This document shows positions 39,890-55,518 of a stretch of DNA of 64,000 bases, piece after piece. Position 1 is the first letter of the stretch. The number at the start of each line of letters is the position of its first letter. Origin of the DNA: Mesoplasma chauliocola. GTDB lineage: Bacteria > Bacillota_I > Bacilli_A > Mycoplasmatales > Mycoplasmataceae. Position numbers and translations under genes: made by a program. Under the pieces are notes generated by a model. It made no database searches and was not told the DNA's origin. It saw nothing but the letters and a program-made list of their open reading frames with translations. The stretch is from the NCBI RefSeq assembly GCF_002290085.1, contig NZ_CP023173.1, positions 1-64,000 of the forward strand, read 5' to 3'.

Positions 39890-42016
39890 ATGAAAAAACT
39901 ATTATTAACACTATCATCTGTACTTGTAGTTGGTGTAAGCACAAGTACCCTAATTTCATGTGGTATAAAACCAGAAAATGAAGTTGTTTTTATGTTATTT
40001 GGTACAACAAGTAGTAATGGTGACCAAGAAAAAAGAAAGAATTTTCAAGATATTGCTGAAAGCTATAATCAAGCTTATAAAAATGAACCAGATTTTGTTC
40101 CAGTAAAAGTTGTAATGAGAAGCTCTAATTACTTAGATTTAGCTATTCAATCAGGAGACAATTTACCAGATTTATATGTTTCATACGTTGATGCTGCTTC
40201 TACTTATGTTGATTCATCAATTGGTAATCAAGTTAGAGATATGAAAGAATCAATGGGCGAAGGTTTTAAAAAATTTGAAGAAGATTTAATAACTCCTGCT
40301 TTTATGGAAGAAGGTCAATATAAAAACACTCAAATAGTTTTACCTTTTGGAAAATCTTTTGATATTTCTGTAATTAATGTTAATTTATTTATTCAATTTA
40401 TGGCTTTGTTTCCAGAATTAGTCACTTTATCAGTCAATTTATCAGATAATTTTAATGAATATAACAAGCAAAGAAGTGACCTTTTAGATGGATCTGAAGA
40501 ATGAGTAAAAACTAAAATATTCAGAGAGGGTTTGAGTTTATCTAAAACACAATCAGACAATGATTCAATTAGCATTGATCAAAATGTTTATGATTCTTTG
40601 GTGGAAGAAATGAAAAAAGTTAAGGATGTAAATTTAATTAAAGAATTTTTTAACTCAACTGAAAATGTTTTGAACGTTGCAAGTGCATTTAGAGAAATTG
40701 TAGATAATGATGGTTTGGATGTAACGGTAACATTAAATGAAGCAGATAAATCAAAATCAGTTAAACCAAATGAAACATATAATTTTGCTTTTGGAATGGA
40801 TTCAATTGATAATAAATATTACATGGATTATGCAGCAACTAAAGGTGCTAAAGAAGGTGTAATTAATGTAGAAGATTCAATTTCACCAAGTCCAGACAAA
40901 GATTTTTGATATAGCACTACTTATAATAATAAAATAGCAAACATAGAACTTAATCCTTATTCACAAGGTTTCTTAAATACAACTAAATATTTACAAGGTA
41001 TGAAAGACATAGCTTTAAAAAATGATAAAGCATCAAGTACTGAGTGAAGAGACCAGTGAAATGGAGTGTTTTCAGCAGCAAGAAGAACAAGTACAACGCA
41101 AAACTGGGTAACAGAAGATTTTGTTAAATCAACAATGTTCATGGCAAGTGCATCATCAGCAAACGATATTTACTTTACTGATCAATTTAAAGACAAAGAT
41201 GTACAAATAATTAATAATGGAACTGAAATAAACGGAAAAGCAACATACAGACCAGTAAGCAAAGCTGATGTTATTACAACATCAACAACAAATGGTGAAA
41301 ATTCAAATGGTAAATCAGTTTTTCTTTCTCAAGGAAGAGGAATTGCAGGATTTAAATCTAATGGAAATAATGCGGCTGCAAAAGAAAAATCAGTAACAAA
41401 TTTTTTAAACTACATGATGCAACCAATTCAAACTGCTCAATATGGTTTAAAAACAAGTTATATGCCAGCAACAAAATCAGGAATGTCAATTTATGAAAGT
41501 TATTTAGATGGAAGTTATAATAATACTTCTGATGAAATAAAAAAAGTCGATAAATTGAGTAATGTTATCATGGAAATAGAAAAAGATTATTTTAATAATC
41601 CTATTGATAAGCAAGAAGCAAAAGCATTGATTCCAGAATATTTCCAACAAATTAAAGATTCAACAGGAAACCCAGAAGTTAAGGCTGGTGTAAGTTCTGT
41701 TAATACAGCATTTATTAAAGATTATTTAGATCCTTTAATTAAAGGAGAAAGAGATGACATTGAACTAGTTTCTTCAAAAGCAATACCAACAACTGATATT
41801 ATTCGTTCAAGTTTAAAACCTGCTCTTACAGGAACAGGGGGTCTACTTGATTTAAGAGCATCAGGTGGTGCAAGAGAAATTGGATTGGATAAATTATTAG
41901 AAGATGGTAATCAATATTACAATCTTTCAAGATATATAAGAACTTATCAAAATCAAGAGTTTTATAGACAAATTAATGTAAAAATCACAGAAAACCCTAA
42001 TACAACTAAAAAGTAA
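39890..42016 (+). CDS. Solute-binding lipoprotein of ABC system A
   Basis: The 708-aa protein has a lipoprotein signal peptide ending TLISC, with Cys24 as the lipidation site. It should therefore sit on the outer face of the membrane. It resembles extracellular solute-binding proteins of the carbohydrate-uptake (CUT1) type but is much longer than the usual 420 or so residues, as are mycoplasma relatives. It is a paralogue of the lipoprotein at 47628: both share VLPFGKS.D.SVINV, FGMDSIDNKYYMDYAA-like and SYMPATKSGMSIYESYLDG-like segments. Two permease genes follow in the same operon. The ligand is unknown; the family annotation says sugar, but see the system B operon. Confidence 0.85.
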
Positions 42017-42044
42017 AAAAGCTTTTAGTGATGGAGAATAATTA

Positions 42045-43013
42045 ATGAAAAAATGAGATAAAGGATTCATAATAAACAGAACAAATTTATCTAAAAAAAA
42101 CGCAAATAATTTAGAAAAAGGCAGATTTGATATTTTCAATCAATTGATTTGAATATTACCAGCATTCTTCTTTATTTGTGTTTTTTCATATTTTTCAATT
42201 TATATAGTTTTTAAATTTGGTTTAAGTGAAAATGGAGGTCAAGGAGTTTTTAAGCTTAGTTTTACATCTATAAAAAACCTATTTACAGATCCGCTGAAAG
42301 AATTCCCAATAGCTTTAAGAAATACATTATTATATGTTACTCTATCGGTTCCAATATCATTACTTCTTTCACTATGAGTAGGTAAGTCTTTGAGTAATGT
42401 TTTAAATAAAAAAGCTTTTGCTTTTTTTCAGTCAGCATTATTCTTGCCATATGTAACTTCTTCATTAGCTGTTGCTATGGCTTTCTCAATGATTTTTTCA
42501 AATAGTGGTAATTCACTACTAGCACAGTTGCTAAGCAAATTTGGATTAGAAAATATTGATTGAACAAAACCTAAAAATGCTATAACTATGACAACAATAT
42601 TTGGAATTTGAAGAATGTTACCATTTCAAATTATTTTATTTACCGCAGCATTTTTAAAAGTTGACAAAAGACTTTATCAAGCAGCAGCAGTAGATGGTAT
42701 ACCTAGATGACAACAATATTGAAAAATTTCTATACCACAAATTATGCCAGTAATTGTTTATATGATAACAACAAGTATAATTGGATCATTAAAATTTATA
42801 CCTTTTGGCTTATTTGCTGATTATGATGAAGCAGTAAAGGCAAGTGCACAAACTGCAGTTTATTATATATTTGCACAAATTAATACTGGAGTTGGCTCTT
42901 TGGCTTCTTATAGTAAAGCAGGAGCAGCAGCTATTATATTGATGCTTATAATTCTTGTAATAACAATTTTTAATGCAATATTAAGTAAATATCTTAGAAA
43001 GAAATTTAGATAG
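42045..43013 (+). CDS. ABC permease, UgpA/MsmF type (system A)
   Basis: The 322-aa membrane protein has about six hydrophobic segments. The ATPase-contact EAA loop is visible in RLYQAAAVDGIPRWQQYWKISIPQI. It forms a heterodimer with the next gene's product. It starts 28 bases after the lipoprotein stop, behind GGAGAA. The N-terminal 30 residues are basic and cytoplasmic. It is closely similar to the system B permease at 52181, including SALFLPYVTSSLAVAMAF. Confidence 0.92.
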
Positions 43014-43027
43014 GTTAGGTGATAGAT

Positions 43028-44206
43028 ATGAAGAAAAGTTATATAACTTCGCAAATAGCTTTCACTAAATCTGAAGTTAAATTTGAAAAACGAAAAAATA
43101 AATATAATCTTGCAATATTGAAAAGAGACTTATTTATTGAAAATAAGCAAAAGCAAATAATATATAGTAAAAATATATTTAAAAAAATATATTTGCAAAC
43201 TATTTTGTTTTTTGTTTTAGCATTTATTAAAAAATATATTAATGTAAGACACAGAAATTATTTAAATCAAATAAGCAAAAGAAATTCAAAAACTTTAAAA
43301 TTGGCAGGAGATTTCTGATATAAAAGAATATTTTTAAATATATCAACTTATTCAGCAATAATTTTAATGCTAATCTTTTTAATTTTTCCATTTTATTGAA
43401 TGCTTATGACTTCTTTTAAACCTTATTCAGAAGTAAGACCTGGTGTTTTGGAATCTTTATGGCCAAAAGAATGAACACTTCAAGCATATAAAGATATGTT
43501 TAAATATATAAATGCTGAGGGCAATCCTGATTCAATTTCAATACCAAGATTTTTCTTTAACTCATTTTTAGTAGCTTCATTAACAACTATTTTGCAACTT
43601 GTTGTTTCAGTTCTTGCTGGTTTTGCAATTTATAATTGAAGAACAAAACTTAATCCTTTACTTTTAATTATTATTTTCTCAATTATGATGGTTCCAGCTG
43701 AGTCTCTTTTATTAGGTAGATATTGAATAACTGTGCAAATGCAATGAAGAGATTCTATAACGGCCTTAATTGTCCCTTTTATAGGTAATGTATTTACGGT
43801 TTATTTAATGAGTAATGCATTTTATGATTTAAGTAAAGATTTAAAAAGAGCTTCTAAAATAGATGGTTTAAACTCATTTCAATATTTTTTAAAAATTGCA
43901 GTACCAGCAGTTAGTGGTGCCATTTTGACAGCTGGAATAATCGCTTTTATTGATTCTTGAAATGCAGTATTGTGACCAATAACTGTTATGGACAAAGATA
44001 CTGGACAATGAAGAACAATACCAATGCTACTTTATTCAATAATGTATTCTGATGGAATTATTCCAGGTGAACAATTAAATCCAAATAATATTAAAATGGC
44101 TGCATGCATCATTTCAATTATTCCAATGATAGTTATATTCTTGCTATTTCAAAAATGAATTATAAAAGGCTTATCAAGACCTGGAACAAATACAAACAAA
44201 GGATAA
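43028..44206 (+). CDS. ABC permease, UgpE/MsmG type (system A)
   Basis: The 392-aa partner permease has an unusually long basic N-terminal extension of about 100 residues before the first CUT1-type segment (IFPFYWMLMTSFK). The EAA loop is DLSKDLKRASKIDGLNSFQYFLKIAVPA. The start at 43028 follows TTAGGTG. An in-frame GTG at 43019 is possible but unnecessary. No ATPase gene follows; a terminator closes the operon. The ATPase is probably shared with system B. Confidence 0.92.
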
Positions 44207-47449: not shown

Positions 47450-47455
47450 TATAAT
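47450..47455 (+). promoter_or_regulatory. Likely promoter -10 of ABC operon B
   Basis: TATAAT lies 28 bases before the aptamer. Transcription from here would start close to the aptamer's 5' strand. Possible -35 hexamers (TTGATA 47423-47428, TTGTTT 47430-47435) have poor spacing. Confidence 0.45.
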
Positions 47456-47482
47456 TATTTTAACTTAATAATATTATATTGA

Positions 47483-47545
47483 ACTTATACATGGTAACAT
47501 AATGGGTTATTGTCCCGCCTCCAAACCTATTTGGAGACTGTAAGA
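47483..47545 (+). promoter_or_regulatory. 2'-deoxyguanosine (purine-class) riboswitch aptamer
   Basis: The three-way junction of the purine class is complete. P1 pairs CTTATAC (47484-47490) with the CTGTAAG strand. P2 pairs GTAAC with GTTAT around the loop ATAATGG. P3 is a perfect 7-bp CTCCAAA / TTTGGAG with loop CCTA, and the joining strand is TGTCCCGC. From memory it matches the Mesoplasma florum 2'-dG-I aptamer almost base for base, including ACTTATACA, the L2 loop ATAATGG and CCTATTTGGAGACT. The junction C that pairs with the guanine base is kept (GAC-T). It lies 83 bases before the lipoprotein start. The expression platform is unclear: only a weak AAAATAATTTT-T tract follows. Confidence 0.88.
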
Positions 47546-47627
47546 TCAAAATAATTTTTTTTGTAGTAGTTTATATGTTGTTATTAAGTGGTTTTATAAA
47601 TATATTTAAAAAGGGGAAAATTAATTT

Positions 47628-49971: not shown

Positions 49972-52191
49972 ATGAGTATAAAATTAAAAAATATAAATAT
50001 AGACTATGGAAATTTTTTAGCAGTTGATAATTTAAGCATGGAGATCAAAAAAGGGGAATTAGTTTCCCTTTTAGGTCCTTCTGGTTGTGGTAAAACAACA
50101 GCTTTAAATGCCATAGCAGGTCTAATAAATACAACTTCTGGTCAAATGTTATTTGATGGTGTTGATGTTACACAAAAACCAAGTCAAAAAAGAAATATAG
50201 GTTTAGTATTTCAAAGTTATGCATTATATACACATATGAGTGTATTTAAAAATATAGCATATCCTTTATATCACTCAAAAAGATTTAAAAAAGAATTAAA
50301 ACAAGATAATTATTTAAATAAATTACGATTAAAAACTTTAGCTGAATCTGAAAACTTTGAATTTGTTATAAATCAACAAAATAAATTTGATGCCTATATT
50401 TTAAAATTTCAAGAAGAACTTAACTCTTTAATTGAAAATAAATTCGTTGACTATTTAAGATCAAATAAAGCAATTTTAAACAATTATTTAAATGTTCTTT
50501 TCGCTGAATCTAATTTAAACGATGCAAGAATTATAAATGCAAAAAACCAATTGAAAAGTTATTTATATGATAAAGCTAAAATCAAATTTAATAAAGAAAC
50601 AAATAAACTTAATATTTATATTGTTGAAAATAATAAAAAAATCTTAAAAAGTGAACATGATATAAGATATAGTTTCTTATTAGAATTTTTTGATTATAAA
50701 ATTAAAAATTCAATTAAGGAATTTGAGGCTCATTCAAAAGAAATAGCTAAAACAATGAAGAAAACAAAGAAAAGTATTTCTAAATTGGAAGATGGAACAT
50801 TAGGTGTCCAAATTTTTTCTAAAAATGGATCTTCTTCATATGATTCATTCAAAGAAGAGTCAAACTCAAACTCACTTGATTTCTTTAGTACTATATTTAG
50901 AGATGCTTACGATCTTGTTGATAATTTTATAATTGAAGTTAATAAACTATTTGAATCAGAAATTTTTGCTAACTCAAAATACTCAAAAATAATTTTACAA
51001 ATTTCTAATATTATTAAAAAAGAATTAAAAATAGTTGATAAAGCAGCAAAGGATAAAAATTTGGATATAAATCCTGAAAAATTACTTTTATCTATAAAAT
51101 CAGAAATAATTGAAAAAGTTAATAACAAAAAACAAGAATTAACTACTGCATTAGTTGAATATAATGATTTTATAATTAAAGCAAATTATTTTGGTACAAA
51201 TTTAGAAAACATAATTGCTGGTTTTTCTGAATTAAAATCTTCTGATCAGGCAATTGAAAATTCTGACAAAATTGAAAGCCAATTTAAAACAGCCGTCCTA
51301 AAAGAAATAGACAACTTACTTAATGATTCTGTTAACGTAATAACTAAAGAAATACAGGTTAAGGCAAAAAAAATTGATACAACTGAACTTTACTTAAAAA
51401 TTAAAAAATCTATTTATTCAAAAAATAGAAAAATTAAAGAATTAGTTTATGAAACAGCTAAACAAGTTGAAATAGAAAATCAATTAAATAAAAAACCTAG
51501 TGAATTATCTGGTGGTCAACAACAACGTGTCGCTATTGCAAGAGCAATTGTTAAAAAACCAAGTATTTTATTAATGGATGAACCGTTATCTAATCTTGAT
51601 GCAAAACTTCGTTTAACAACAAGAGAGTGAATTAAGAGATTCCAACAATCTGTAGGAATTACAACAATTTTTGTTACTCATGATCAAGAAGAAGCAATGA
51701 GTATATCTGATTCAATATTTGTTATGAATAAAGGTGTTTTACAACAAAGCGGTAGTCCTCTTGAAATTTATAACAAGCCTGCAAACGAATTTGTTGCAAA
51801 TTTTATCGGAACACCTAACATAAACTTTGTACCGGTTAAAAGAAGTAAAAATCAGTTCTTACTACCTTCAAATGAAGTCTTAAAGTTTAAAGAATTACCA
51901 ATGGATCAAAGTGAATTTAAATTAGGTATTAGACCTGAAAAAATAACACTTAAAAAAACGGCTGGTTCTATTTTGCTAGCTAAAGGTTCAATTATTCTAG
52001 TTGAGCAATTAGGTAAACAAAATCATGTGAAAATTAAAGTTTCAAAAACCTTAGAATTAACACTAGTTATTGATCCATCAGAATGAGCTAATATTAAAAA
52101 TACCGATGAAATAAACTTATACGTAAATCCAAAAGAAATTTACCTGTTTGGTGAAGACAAAAATATTATTGAGGCAGAATATGTTAAATAA
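49972..52191 (+). CDS. ABC importer ATPase (MsmK/UgpC type) with a large insertion
   Basis: The 739-aa ATPase is twice the family's usual 370 or so residues. The N-terminal part has Walker [10 protein letters not shown] (35-43) and the Q-loop [13 protein letters not shown] (Q81). The signature LSGGQQQR appears only at 512-519, whereas about 55 residues normally separate the two. The extra roughly 375 residues (about 105-490) are Lys/Asn/Glu-rich and helical, so they probably form a coiled-coil arm. Walker [12 protein letters not shown], the H-loop [10 protein letters not shown] and the C-terminal TOBE-type regulatory domain (about 610-739) are normal. The reading frame crosses TGA codons near 51630. 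The last 11 bases overlap the permease gene. Confidence 0.93.
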
Positions 52192-53191
52192 GAAAAATGC
52201 AAATTCAAATAATAACATTGAAAGTACACCAAAAAATAAGGGATTTACTTTAAAGTTTAAAAAGTCTCCAAAATCAAAAAATATGGAAAAAGGACGCTAC
52301 GATTTAATTAATCAATTAATTTGAATAACTCCTGGTATAGCTTTTGTTTGTTTATTCTCTTACTATTCAATATTTATTGTTTTACGTTATGGAATGAGTG
52401 AGGGTGGTTCAATAGGTGCTTTTCAACTAAGTCTTTCAAACATAAAACTTATATTATTTGAAGATGTTACAAACGAATTTACAATTGCACTTAGAAATAC
52501 ATTCATTTACGTTATAGCAGCTGTTCCATTATCATTATTTATTGCTCTATTTACAGCGAAAGCTTTGGCAAATATAGTACACAAAAAAGCATTTGGATTT
52601 TTTCAATCAGCATTCTTTCTTCCATATGTTACTTCTTCATTAGCGGTAGCAATGGTGTTTGCAACATTATTCTTGAATGGTAATGATCCAATAATTAATT
52701 CAATTATTAGACTATTTAATAAAAACGCAAATCCAGATTGAAGAGAACCAAAAAATACAATGATACTATTAATAATATATGGTACTTGAAGAATGTTGCC
52801 TTTTAAAATAATTATGTTTACAGCAGCATTTTTAAGAATTGATAGAAGACTTTATCAAGCTGCATCATTGGATGGAACTCCAAAATGACAACAATTTTGA
52901 AAAATATCACTACCACAAATCTTACCTGTAATTATTTATATGATTACAACAGGAATAATAGGCGCGTTCAAATTTATGCCTTTTGGTTTATTTAATAACT
53001 ATAATGAAGCGACAGCTTCACAAGCTCAGACAGCAGTTTACTTTATTTTTGATAAAGTTAATCCTTCAGGTGGTGGGATACCTCAATATGGTAAAGCAGG
53101 AGCTGCTTCTATAGTTTTAATGATTTTAATTTTAGTAATGACCTTATTTAATAGACAATTAACAAAGTATTTAAATAAAAAATTTAAATAG
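52181..53191 (+). CDS. ABC permease, UgpA/MsmF type (operon B)
   Basis: The 336-aa permease has six or so membrane segments. It has the EAA loop RRLYQAASLDGTPKWQQFWKISLPQI, and AFFLPYVTSSLAVAMVF matches the system A permease. Its ATG lies inside the ATPase gene's end (11-base overlap), so it is translationally coupled. The first 45 residues are polar and basic. Together with the next permease it makes the transmembrane pore. Confidence 0.93.
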
Positions 53192-53204: not shown

Positions 53205-54422
53205 ATGGAAAATAAAATAAAAAATAGTTTAACCAATGATTCTTCTTCTAATAAATTTTATATAGATAGTAAGGCATCAAAAATAAGTAATCAAAAAGAA
53301 AAGTATGAGCAACATTTAAATAAATTTGAAACAAAAATTTTAGAAAAAGAAGAAAAAATAGTTTTGTCAGAAACTTTTTGAATAACATTTATTTTAAAAG
53401 TAAATTTATTCTTTTTCAAAAAATATCAACCCAAAATGATTTACATTTTTAATTGAAGATATATTAGAAGAACAGGAAAAATTAAAAGAAAAACATTAAA
53501 AATGGCAGGTGATGTTTGATATAAAAACATTGTTAGTGGATCAGTAAACTGATTTGTCCTTATTTTAATGTTTATAGTAATGATTTTCCCATTTTACTGA
53601 ATGCTTGTTACTTCCTTTAAATCAAATGCAGAAATAGATCCTTCAGCACAACAATCATTTTTTAAAATGCTTTGACCTGAAAGTTGAAATTTATCTGTGT
53701 ACAGAGAAATGCTTGATTTTATTAGCTTAACATCAAGCAATCAAGATGTAACATTTACAAGACTTTTTGTTAACTCTTTCTTTATTGCAACAATTTCTAC
53801 ATTAGTACAACTAGGTGTTTCTATAGTTGGTGGATTTGCAATATATAACTGAAGAACAAAATTTAATTCAGTATTTATGATAATTATGTTCTCAATCATG
53901 ATGGTGCCTGGAGAAGCAATGCTTTTAGGTAGATATACTATTATGATTCAAATGGGGTGAGGAAATACATTAGCTGCTCTTATAGTCCCTTTTATAGGTA
54001 ATGTGTTTACAATGTATTTAATGAGTAATGCATTTTATTCATTAAATAAAGATTTAAAAAGAGCAGCAAAAATGGATGGATTGAATAGTATGCAGTACTT
54101 TTTAAAAATTGCATTACCAGCAATTAGTGCTACTATAATTACTTCATTTATTATTTCATTTATTGAGTCATGAAACTCTGTTTTATGACCAGTAACAATA
54201 ATGAGAGATGACACACCTTGAAAAACAATCCCGATGATGCTTTATAGAATGATGCAAGTTTCAGGAATTGAGCCAGAAATTGCTATTGGTTATAACCCAA
54301 TTAACATGAAAATGGCAGCATCCTTTCTTGCAATCTTACCAATGATAATAATGTTTATTGTATTTAACAAGTGGATTATTAACGGGCTTTCAAAAAGAGG
54401 GTCATCAGGGTCAAAGGGTTAG
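53205..54422 (+). CDS. ABC permease, UgpE/MsmG type (operon B)
   Basis: The 405-aa partner permease has a charged N-terminal extension of about 110 residues before IFPFYWMLVTSFK, as in its system A paralogue. The EAA loop is SLNKDLKRAAKMDGLNSMQYFLKIALPA. The conserved extension in both paralogues may touch the long ATPase insertion. It starts 13 bases after the previous stop, behind AAGAAAGGAAAA. The lipoprotein hydrolase gene follows after 4 bases. Confidence 0.93.
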
Positions 54423-54426
54423 AAAA

Positions 54427-55518
54427 ATGAAAAAAATTTGAAATCAAATAGCATTTATTATAATAATTGTTTTATTATTTATCATGATTCCTTTTTCAGT
54501 TGTTTCATGCTCAAATAAAATAATTGAATTGACAGGAAATGTTAATTATTATGTTGCAGCGGTAGGAAATGGAAACTTTTCAGTTGTTGAAAAAGACGGA
54601 CATGGCGTAATTTTAGATGCTGGTGCTGGTTTATCTGATTCTAAAAATTTATATGACTTAGGAAATGAAAGAGCTTCGTCTTATTGAACTAGAAATAGTA
54701 ACTCAGCCATTACAGAATGAGCAGTAAAGTTCATGAAAGAGACAGCTAAAATTGAATATTTAGATGCAGCTTTTATATCTCATAAGCACTCAGACCATTA
54801 TGATTTGCTTTTTGATATATTAGATGCATACTCACAAGATGAAACTGTTGTTGTTGCTCCAATTGATTCAGCTGGTCTAGAGGAAACAATAAAAAGCGTT
54901 TCACCAAATTGAAATGGAACAGTAGATAAAAAATTTAGAAAACAATATACATTCCTTGGCGGAACTTTTGAAAATTTAACTGCTTATTCATCAAAGAAAA
55001 CTTTAAAAAGTATTAAAAATAATATGACAAAAGACCCAAATGATACTTCAATGGCAATTAGGTTTACAGCAAATGGACACTCAGTTTTATCTTTAGGGGA
55101 TTTACAAAACCAAGGACCTACGAAAGATGAAAAATTTTTGAATAAAGTTAAAGAAAAAGAATATGACGTTTTGTTGGCAGGCCACCATGGTTCTATTAAT
55201 TCAGCTACATTAGCTATAGCTGAAAATTCAGGCGTTATTAAACATACTTTCTTTTCAGGAACAAGTTACAGTAACGGCTCTTCTGATTGAGATAAATATT
55301 CAGGTGGGCATCTAATGAATCCACATTCTATAACTCAATCAATGCAGAGAGTTTGAAAAAACACAAATTCAGCAAATTATTATTTAACAGGAATTTGAGA
55401 AAAAGACAGCGATGGACAAAATTTTAAAGGCAACTTGGCAAGTTCTTACAAATGATCATCTGAAAAAAATGAAGTTTTAAAAATATCAGACACAATATTA
55501 AATTCGAATGCTAGATAA
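54427..55518 (+). CDS. Surface lipoprotein with a ComEC/Rec2-type metallo-beta-lactamase domain
   Basis: The 363-aa product has a lipoprotein signal ending SVVSC (Cys28), so it should be anchored outside. The metallo-beta-lactamase motifs are HxHxDH (SHKHSDHYD), LSLGDL (second metal Asp) and AGHHGS. The combination DTSMAIRF...VLSLGDL...GHHGS is that of the ComEC/Rec2 hydrolase domain, a proposed nuclease that degrades the non-transported DNA strand. The ComEC membrane channel is absent. The gene closes the riboswitch-controlled ABC operon, and in other mollicutes a nuclease occupies a comparable place. I infer a surface nuclease or phosphodiesterase; a different MBL activity cannot be excluded. 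Confidence 0.85.

Follow-up and report, generated by a model that had tools for sequence, protein, structure and literature searches.

What is sensed by the small structured RNA that precedes an ABC transporter operon in Mesoplasma chauliocola, and what does that operon import? The locus lies in the window analyzed here, which is the first 64 kb of a genome of 854,780 bp. Few riboswitches sense nucleosides, and the genes that they accompany can point to transporter substrates which sequence similarity does not disclose. The reading favored below, to which we assign a probability of about two in three, is that a riboswitch of the 2'-deoxyguanosine-I (2'-dG-I) type is contained in the leader of an operon for the salvage of nucleic acid from outside the cell, and that 2'-dG lowers its expression.

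Identity and structure of the aptamer

The window was scanned against the Rfam covariance models with cmscan. Nucleotides 47483-47545 of the forward strand matched RF01510 (2dG-I) over model positions 1-63 of 63 with a score of 75.3 bits (E = 1.6e-14 for the window), compared to a gathering score of 51 bits. No other match within these 64 kb reached gathering level. At 47483, no match to RF00167, the generic purine model, attained the threshold of that model, and weak matches in the window to rli22 and miRNAs were discarded as chance. The first-pass annotation had proposed a purine-class three-way junction, specifically a 2'-dG-I aptamer, at identical coordinates, and the covariance models bore this out. 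It had also pointed to a near-complete resemblance to the Mesoplasma florum aptamer. The window copy is identical in 55 of 64 aligned columns (~86%), including ATAATGG (L2) and CCTATTTGGAGACT, to the aptamer that precedes the ribonucleotide reductase (RNR) genes in genome G003 (793,224 bp), which we take to be M. florum L1. The G003 RNR aptamer represents the experimentally studied type of 2'-dG-I. The window aptamer belongs to a set, as its genome harbors five RF01510 copies; two ordinary purine riboswitches also are present. Six other genomes of the genus possess four to ten RF01510 copies each. The aptamer joins an already-known riboswitch class, and the reassignment of the transporter is the interesting part.

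When 81 distinct aptamers of the genus and the wider family were aligned, the three-way junction was strongly supported: 95.2% of cells were paired and 327 were compensatory on both sides, compared to a mean of 89 in shuffled alignments, none of which (0/500) reached 327. The short L3 and the G-C kissing pairs between L2 and L3 correspond at the sequence level to those of the G003 RNR copy. The J2/3 strand, GUCCCG, is one nucleotide shorter than the GACCCCG of the tested RNR aptamer; a short J2/3 is common to other C58 copies that do not precede RNR genes, and the Rfam model does not demand the RNR form. Position 3 of J1/2 (47492) is U, a base largely associated with the U58 subtype within this group, and an A-A mismatch lies at the end of P1.

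Table 1. Forward-strand features of the riboswitch leader and the operon behind it
Feature	Position	Strand	Basis
Putative -10 box TATAAT, with an expected transcript start at about 47462	47450..47455	+	Read by eye
5' leader strand (P0), can pair with 47579-47589	47463..47473	+	ViennaRNA minimum free energy (MFE) fold
2'-dG-I riboswitch aptamer	47483..47545	+	RF01510, 75.3 bits; alignment and covariation
P1	47484-47489/47539-47544	+	Alignment
P2	47493-47498/47506-47511	+	Alignment
P3	47519-47525/47530-47536	+	Alignment
L2 AUAAUGG and L3 CCUA	within 47483..47545	+	Alignment
C, equivalent of ligand contact C31 (J1/2)	47490	+	Alignment column 8; contacts from PMC8872408
C58-G59 equivalents (J2/3); C58 is the nucleoside/nucleobase discriminator	47516..47517	+	Alignment columns 35-36; PMC7287874, PMC8872408
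C, equivalent of C80 (Watson-Crick partner of guanine moiety)	47538	+	Alignment column 58
U8 tract directly after extended P1 (UUGA/UCAA plus AU-rich pairs); candidate non-canonical terminator	47555..47562	+	Sequence; fold of truncated transcript
Downstream strand: 47568-47572 can pair with 47481-47485 in competition with P1; 47579-47589 can pair with 47463-47473 to give P0	47568..47589	+	MFE
Ribosome-binding site GGGG ahead of ATG 47628	47613..47616	+	Sequence
Solute-binding lipoprotein, 768 aa	47628..49934	+	PF13416 SBP_bac_8; weak P68-family similarity
MalK/UgpC-type ABC ATPase, 739 aa	49972..52191	+	Profile similarity
ABC permease 1 (UgpA/MalF type); start codon uncertain	52148..53191	+	Profile similarity
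ABC permease 2 (UgpE/MalG type)	53205..54422	+	Profile similarity
Lipoprotein with ComEC-type metallo-beta-lactamase (MBL) domain	54427..55518	+	PF00753; TIGR00361, E 2.2e-9

Prediction of the ligand

The choice between nucleobase and nucleoside is set primarily by the pyrimidine at xpt position 51, where U specifies bases and C specifies 2'-dG (PMC7287874). The first shell of 2'-dG-I comprises C31, C58, and C80 (PMC8872408), and the equivalents of all three contacts were found in the window aptamer (Table 1). Only four combinations occupy core columns 31/58/59 among the 81 aptamers, namely C/C/G, U/C/A, C/U/G, and U/U/A, with positions 31 and 59 (alignment columns 8 and 36) covarying perfectly as C-G or U-A in 81/81. 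The window core is C/C/G. Residue 58 is C in all nine copies before class I RNR genes and U in all 22 before guanine genes (guaAB, hpt/NCS2 permease, purA); as these copies are related and not phylogenetically independent, the Fisher value of 5e-8 for this split is descriptive only. A distant second type of RNR in G059 (PF02867, E 1.8e-115) also is preceded by a C58 aptamer, and other C58 copies stand 5' of an endonuclease I lipoprotein gene and of a PhnDCE-type transporter. U58 copies that precede guaAB score above the RF01510 cut-off as well, and these should bind guanine. Therefore, an RF01510 match alone does not prove recognition of 2'-dG. As C58 is present in the window aptamer together with C31/G59 and C80, 2'-dG is its most likely ligand, with the shorter J2/3 and U47492 counseling caution in this prediction.

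The window aptamer shares the three-way junction, L2 and L3, and the C31/C58/G59/C80 equivalents with the M. florum RNR type of 2'-dG-I (RF01510), but differs from it in J2/3, in U47492, in preceding an ABC/MBL operon, and in lacking a terminator. The 2'-dG-II riboswitches of Bacteroidetes also have C at 51/58, and their published locations 5' of ComEC and endonuclease I genes (PMC8872408) involve the types of enzyme encoded behind C58 copies here. However, 2'-dG-II has U22 in the first shell where the window has C31, its L3 and J3/1 are different, and it derives from another phylum; the U/C/A core of several relatives of the window genome is similar to 2'-dG-II at these positions. Guanine riboswitches (RF00167) have the same fold and the pairing pyrimidine C74, but carry U51 and U22-A52 instead of the C (51) and C-G (22-52) of the window copy.

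In G045, a relative that belongs to another genus, U58 aptamers precede genes for adenosine deaminase and nucleoside hydrolase (L084:4645-8103). C58-type aptamers are located ahead of a PhnDCE-like ABC transporter in L050 (7137-11788), L044, L057, and L075, which suggests that this transporter carries a deoxynucleotide-related substrate instead of phosphonate. A region of G001 (36-42 kb; L039:1257-6539) contains five successive aptamers with one lipoprotein gene each, one of which specifies an endonuclease I lipoprotein (PF04231, E 4.5e-34).

The operon, its relatives, and the imported substrate

The ABC transporter/surface hydrolase operon that had been proposed downstream was found: a solute-binding protein (SBP), an ABC ATPase, two permeases, and an MBL-fold lipoprotein are encoded by co-oriented genes, the first of which begins 83 nt downstream of the aptamer. 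The ATPase, permeases, and SBP scored best against UgpC/MalK, UgpA/MalF, UgpE/MalG, and sugar SBPs, but far below the NCBIfam family cut-offs, and the similarity of the SBP is of the generic sugar-SBP type only. The ATPase bears an insertion of ~340 residues between its Walker A and signature parts (matches at 19-125 and ~475-730). The best family for the MBL protein was ComEC/Rec2 (TIGR00361 ComEC_Rec2), with a score below the full-length equivalog cut-off because the protein has the MBL domain only. ComEC-type motifs are evident as HKHSDH (HxHxDH), GDL (Asp), and HHGS; 12 relatives preserve HxHxDH and the second His-His pair without exception, and a lipoprotein signal likewise is evident in most of them. 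Weak matches were obtained to PDB entries 9vc9, 9vcb, and 9vcf, and a single-sequence AlphaFold2 model of the protein was set aside (pLDDT 36.5). The gene order has the anatomy of a nuclease-ABC operon, in which the MBL protein is a nuclease by similarity only. A paralogous SBP-permease-permease cluster that has neither ATPase gene, MBL gene, nor aptamer is located just upstream (39890-44206) and may borrow the ATPase encoded at 49972-52191.

The association of aptamer and operon is not confined to the window genome. Genomes G001, G003, G006, and G009, as well as other genera of the family, also have a purine-family aptamer ahead of this operon. Among 28 scorable homologous ABC clusters in the family (one cluster at a contig end in G052 was left out), an aptamer was present in 12/12 clusters with an MBL gene compared to 2/16 without (Fisher 6e-6). 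These two exceptions are in G007, where the first gene has a marginal PD-(D/E)XK match, and in G059, where NrnA is encoded. A gene for an NrnA-type oligoribonuclease is part of the operon in several relatives, and NrnA also occurs in homologous clusters without an aptamer. Outside the family, another 50 genomes of the order encode homologous permeases, and an SNase gene is situated 2.0-2.9 kb upstream on the same strand in 26/50 of these more distant clusters.

Nuclease-ABC operons have been described in mycoplasmas (PMC5533444, PMC12115388). The MHO_720-760 operon of M. hominis similarly encodes two lipoproteins, one of which is a nuclease, one ATPase, and two permeases (PMC5533444). The nuclease in the mycoplasma operons is of the SNase type, unlike the ComEC-type MBL protein and accompanying riboswitch here. 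With the MBL, NrnA, and SNase neighbors, the linkage with the aptamer, and the precedent of known nuclease-ABC operons, the operon probably takes up nucleic-acid fragments, which could be oligonucleotides, nucleotides, or nucleosides. The operon is probably better explained by nucleic-acid salvage than by sugar import on this comparative evidence. The earlier proposal that the substrate should be redefined gains support from the ComEC-type MBL, NrnA, and SNase genes, which constitute independent evidence from the operon and its homologues, but the substrate indicated is nucleic-acid fragments generally and not specifically deoxynucleosides. To our knowledge, no purine riboswitch accompanies the SNase-type operons of mycoplasmas.

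Residue 58 is not uniform among the aptamers ahead of the ABC/MBL operon: five of 11 aligned copies, including those of the window, G001, and G006, carry C, and the other six, including those of G003 and G009, carry U. Depending on the species, orthologous operons therefore may sense 2'-dG or guanine, and the predicted ligand is not the same throughout. A broader proposal, for which we judge the odds to be even, is that Mesoplasma and relatives share a conserved nucleic-acid importer, consisting of a ComEC-type surface MBL protein and a MalFGK-type ABC transporter misannotated for sugars, in which the riboswitch ligand has flipped repeatedly between 2'-dG and guanine through a single pyrimidine at residue 58, with orthologues reading different breakdown products. 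If true, a family of 'sugar ABC' transporters across the Mollicutes would be nucleic-acid importers, which bears on DNA feeding by genome-reduced bacteria. The natural variation between C58 and U58 ahead of orthologous genes also offers a ready-made test of the evolution of riboswitch specificity.

Control of expression and alternative explanations

Terminator-like hairpins are located downstream of 63/94 aptamer copies, but a terminator scan of the window found none behind the window aptamer, and none follows the four Mesoplasma ABC/MBL copies (0/4). Since this element is absent, we infer rather than observe that the window aptamer regulates the operon. Promoter consensus scanning gave weak matches only. 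The predicted MFE structure of the full leader (-31.5 kcal/mol; ViennaRNA) has P1 opened in favor of leader helices, compared to -25.1 kcal/mol when the aptamer was enforced. The other three Mesoplasma ABC/MBL leaders fold alike, and all four can form pairing that excludes P1. Many Mesoplasma leaders could pair their 5' end with sequence that lies between the aptamer, or terminator, and the start codon; P0-like complementarity in single copies of this AT-rich sequence is mostly not significant. Translational control by concealment of the ribosome-binding site was not supported because the structure predicted at this site does not depend on whether the aptamer is formed. In the RNR switch, binding of 2'-dG leads to termination of transcription (PMC12268651). 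Based on this precedent and on feedback logic, OFF control is most likely.

Three alternatives were weighed. That the aptamer senses guanine, or guanine and 2'-dG alike, is suggested by resemblance of the window copy to the U58 subtype outside residue 58: J2/3 is shortened, the U at 47492 recurs in 12/15 copies with the C/U/G core compared to 5/21 with C/C/G, and the orthologous operon of G003 carries U58. Nevertheless, C58 is the accepted nucleoside determinant and none of the 22 copies ahead of a guanine-base gene has it, which makes a guanine sensor unlikely. An ordinary sugar or glycerol-phosphate importer, with the riboswitch merely tying carbon uptake to purine status, would fit the best scores of the ATPase, permeases, and SBP against Ugp/Mal systems and sugar SBPs. 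However, those Ugp/Mal scores fall far under the family cut-offs, and the MBL, NrnA, and SNase neighbors and the aptamer/MBL linkage would be unexpected, rendering this explanation improbable. Finally, the terminator found behind most copies is missing here, so the aptamer might be a relic or a recently acquired copy without working control. The A-A mismatch at the end of P1 and the existence of damaged copies in G005 accord with this idea, but the retention of all core residues and stems, the P1-excluding pairing available to all four ABC/MBL leaders, and the conservation of the aptamer-operon linkage across genera make it very unlikely indeed.

In the favored reading of a 2'-dG riboswitch that governs nucleic-acid scavenging, the MBL lipoprotein, a predicted nuclease, probably cleaves DNA or RNA on the cell surface. 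Fragments or nucleotides would be captured by the SBP lipoprotein and imported by the MalFGK-type transporter, and internal enzymes would degrade the material to (deoxy)nucleosides. Accumulated 2'-dG would bind in the junction, where C47538 is predicted to pair with the guanine moiety and C47516 and C47490 to line the site, and would stabilize P1 such that expression most likely is lowered as end-product feedback. Either a stop at the extended P1 and U8 tract or a leader switch between P1 and P0 could connect P1 with expression. Points that weigh against this reading are the shortened J2/3, the U58 of the orthologous G003 operon and the C/U split ahead of this operon, the missing terminator, the NrnA genes in aptamer-free clusters, the generic similarity of the SBP to sugar SBPs, and the possibility that the MBL protein acts on another substrate. 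Aptamer-like copies also are located directly 3' of the MBL gene and 5' of an unrelated dus/lysS-like block (L067:12234-12296 and L039:14598-14659), and possibly are relics.
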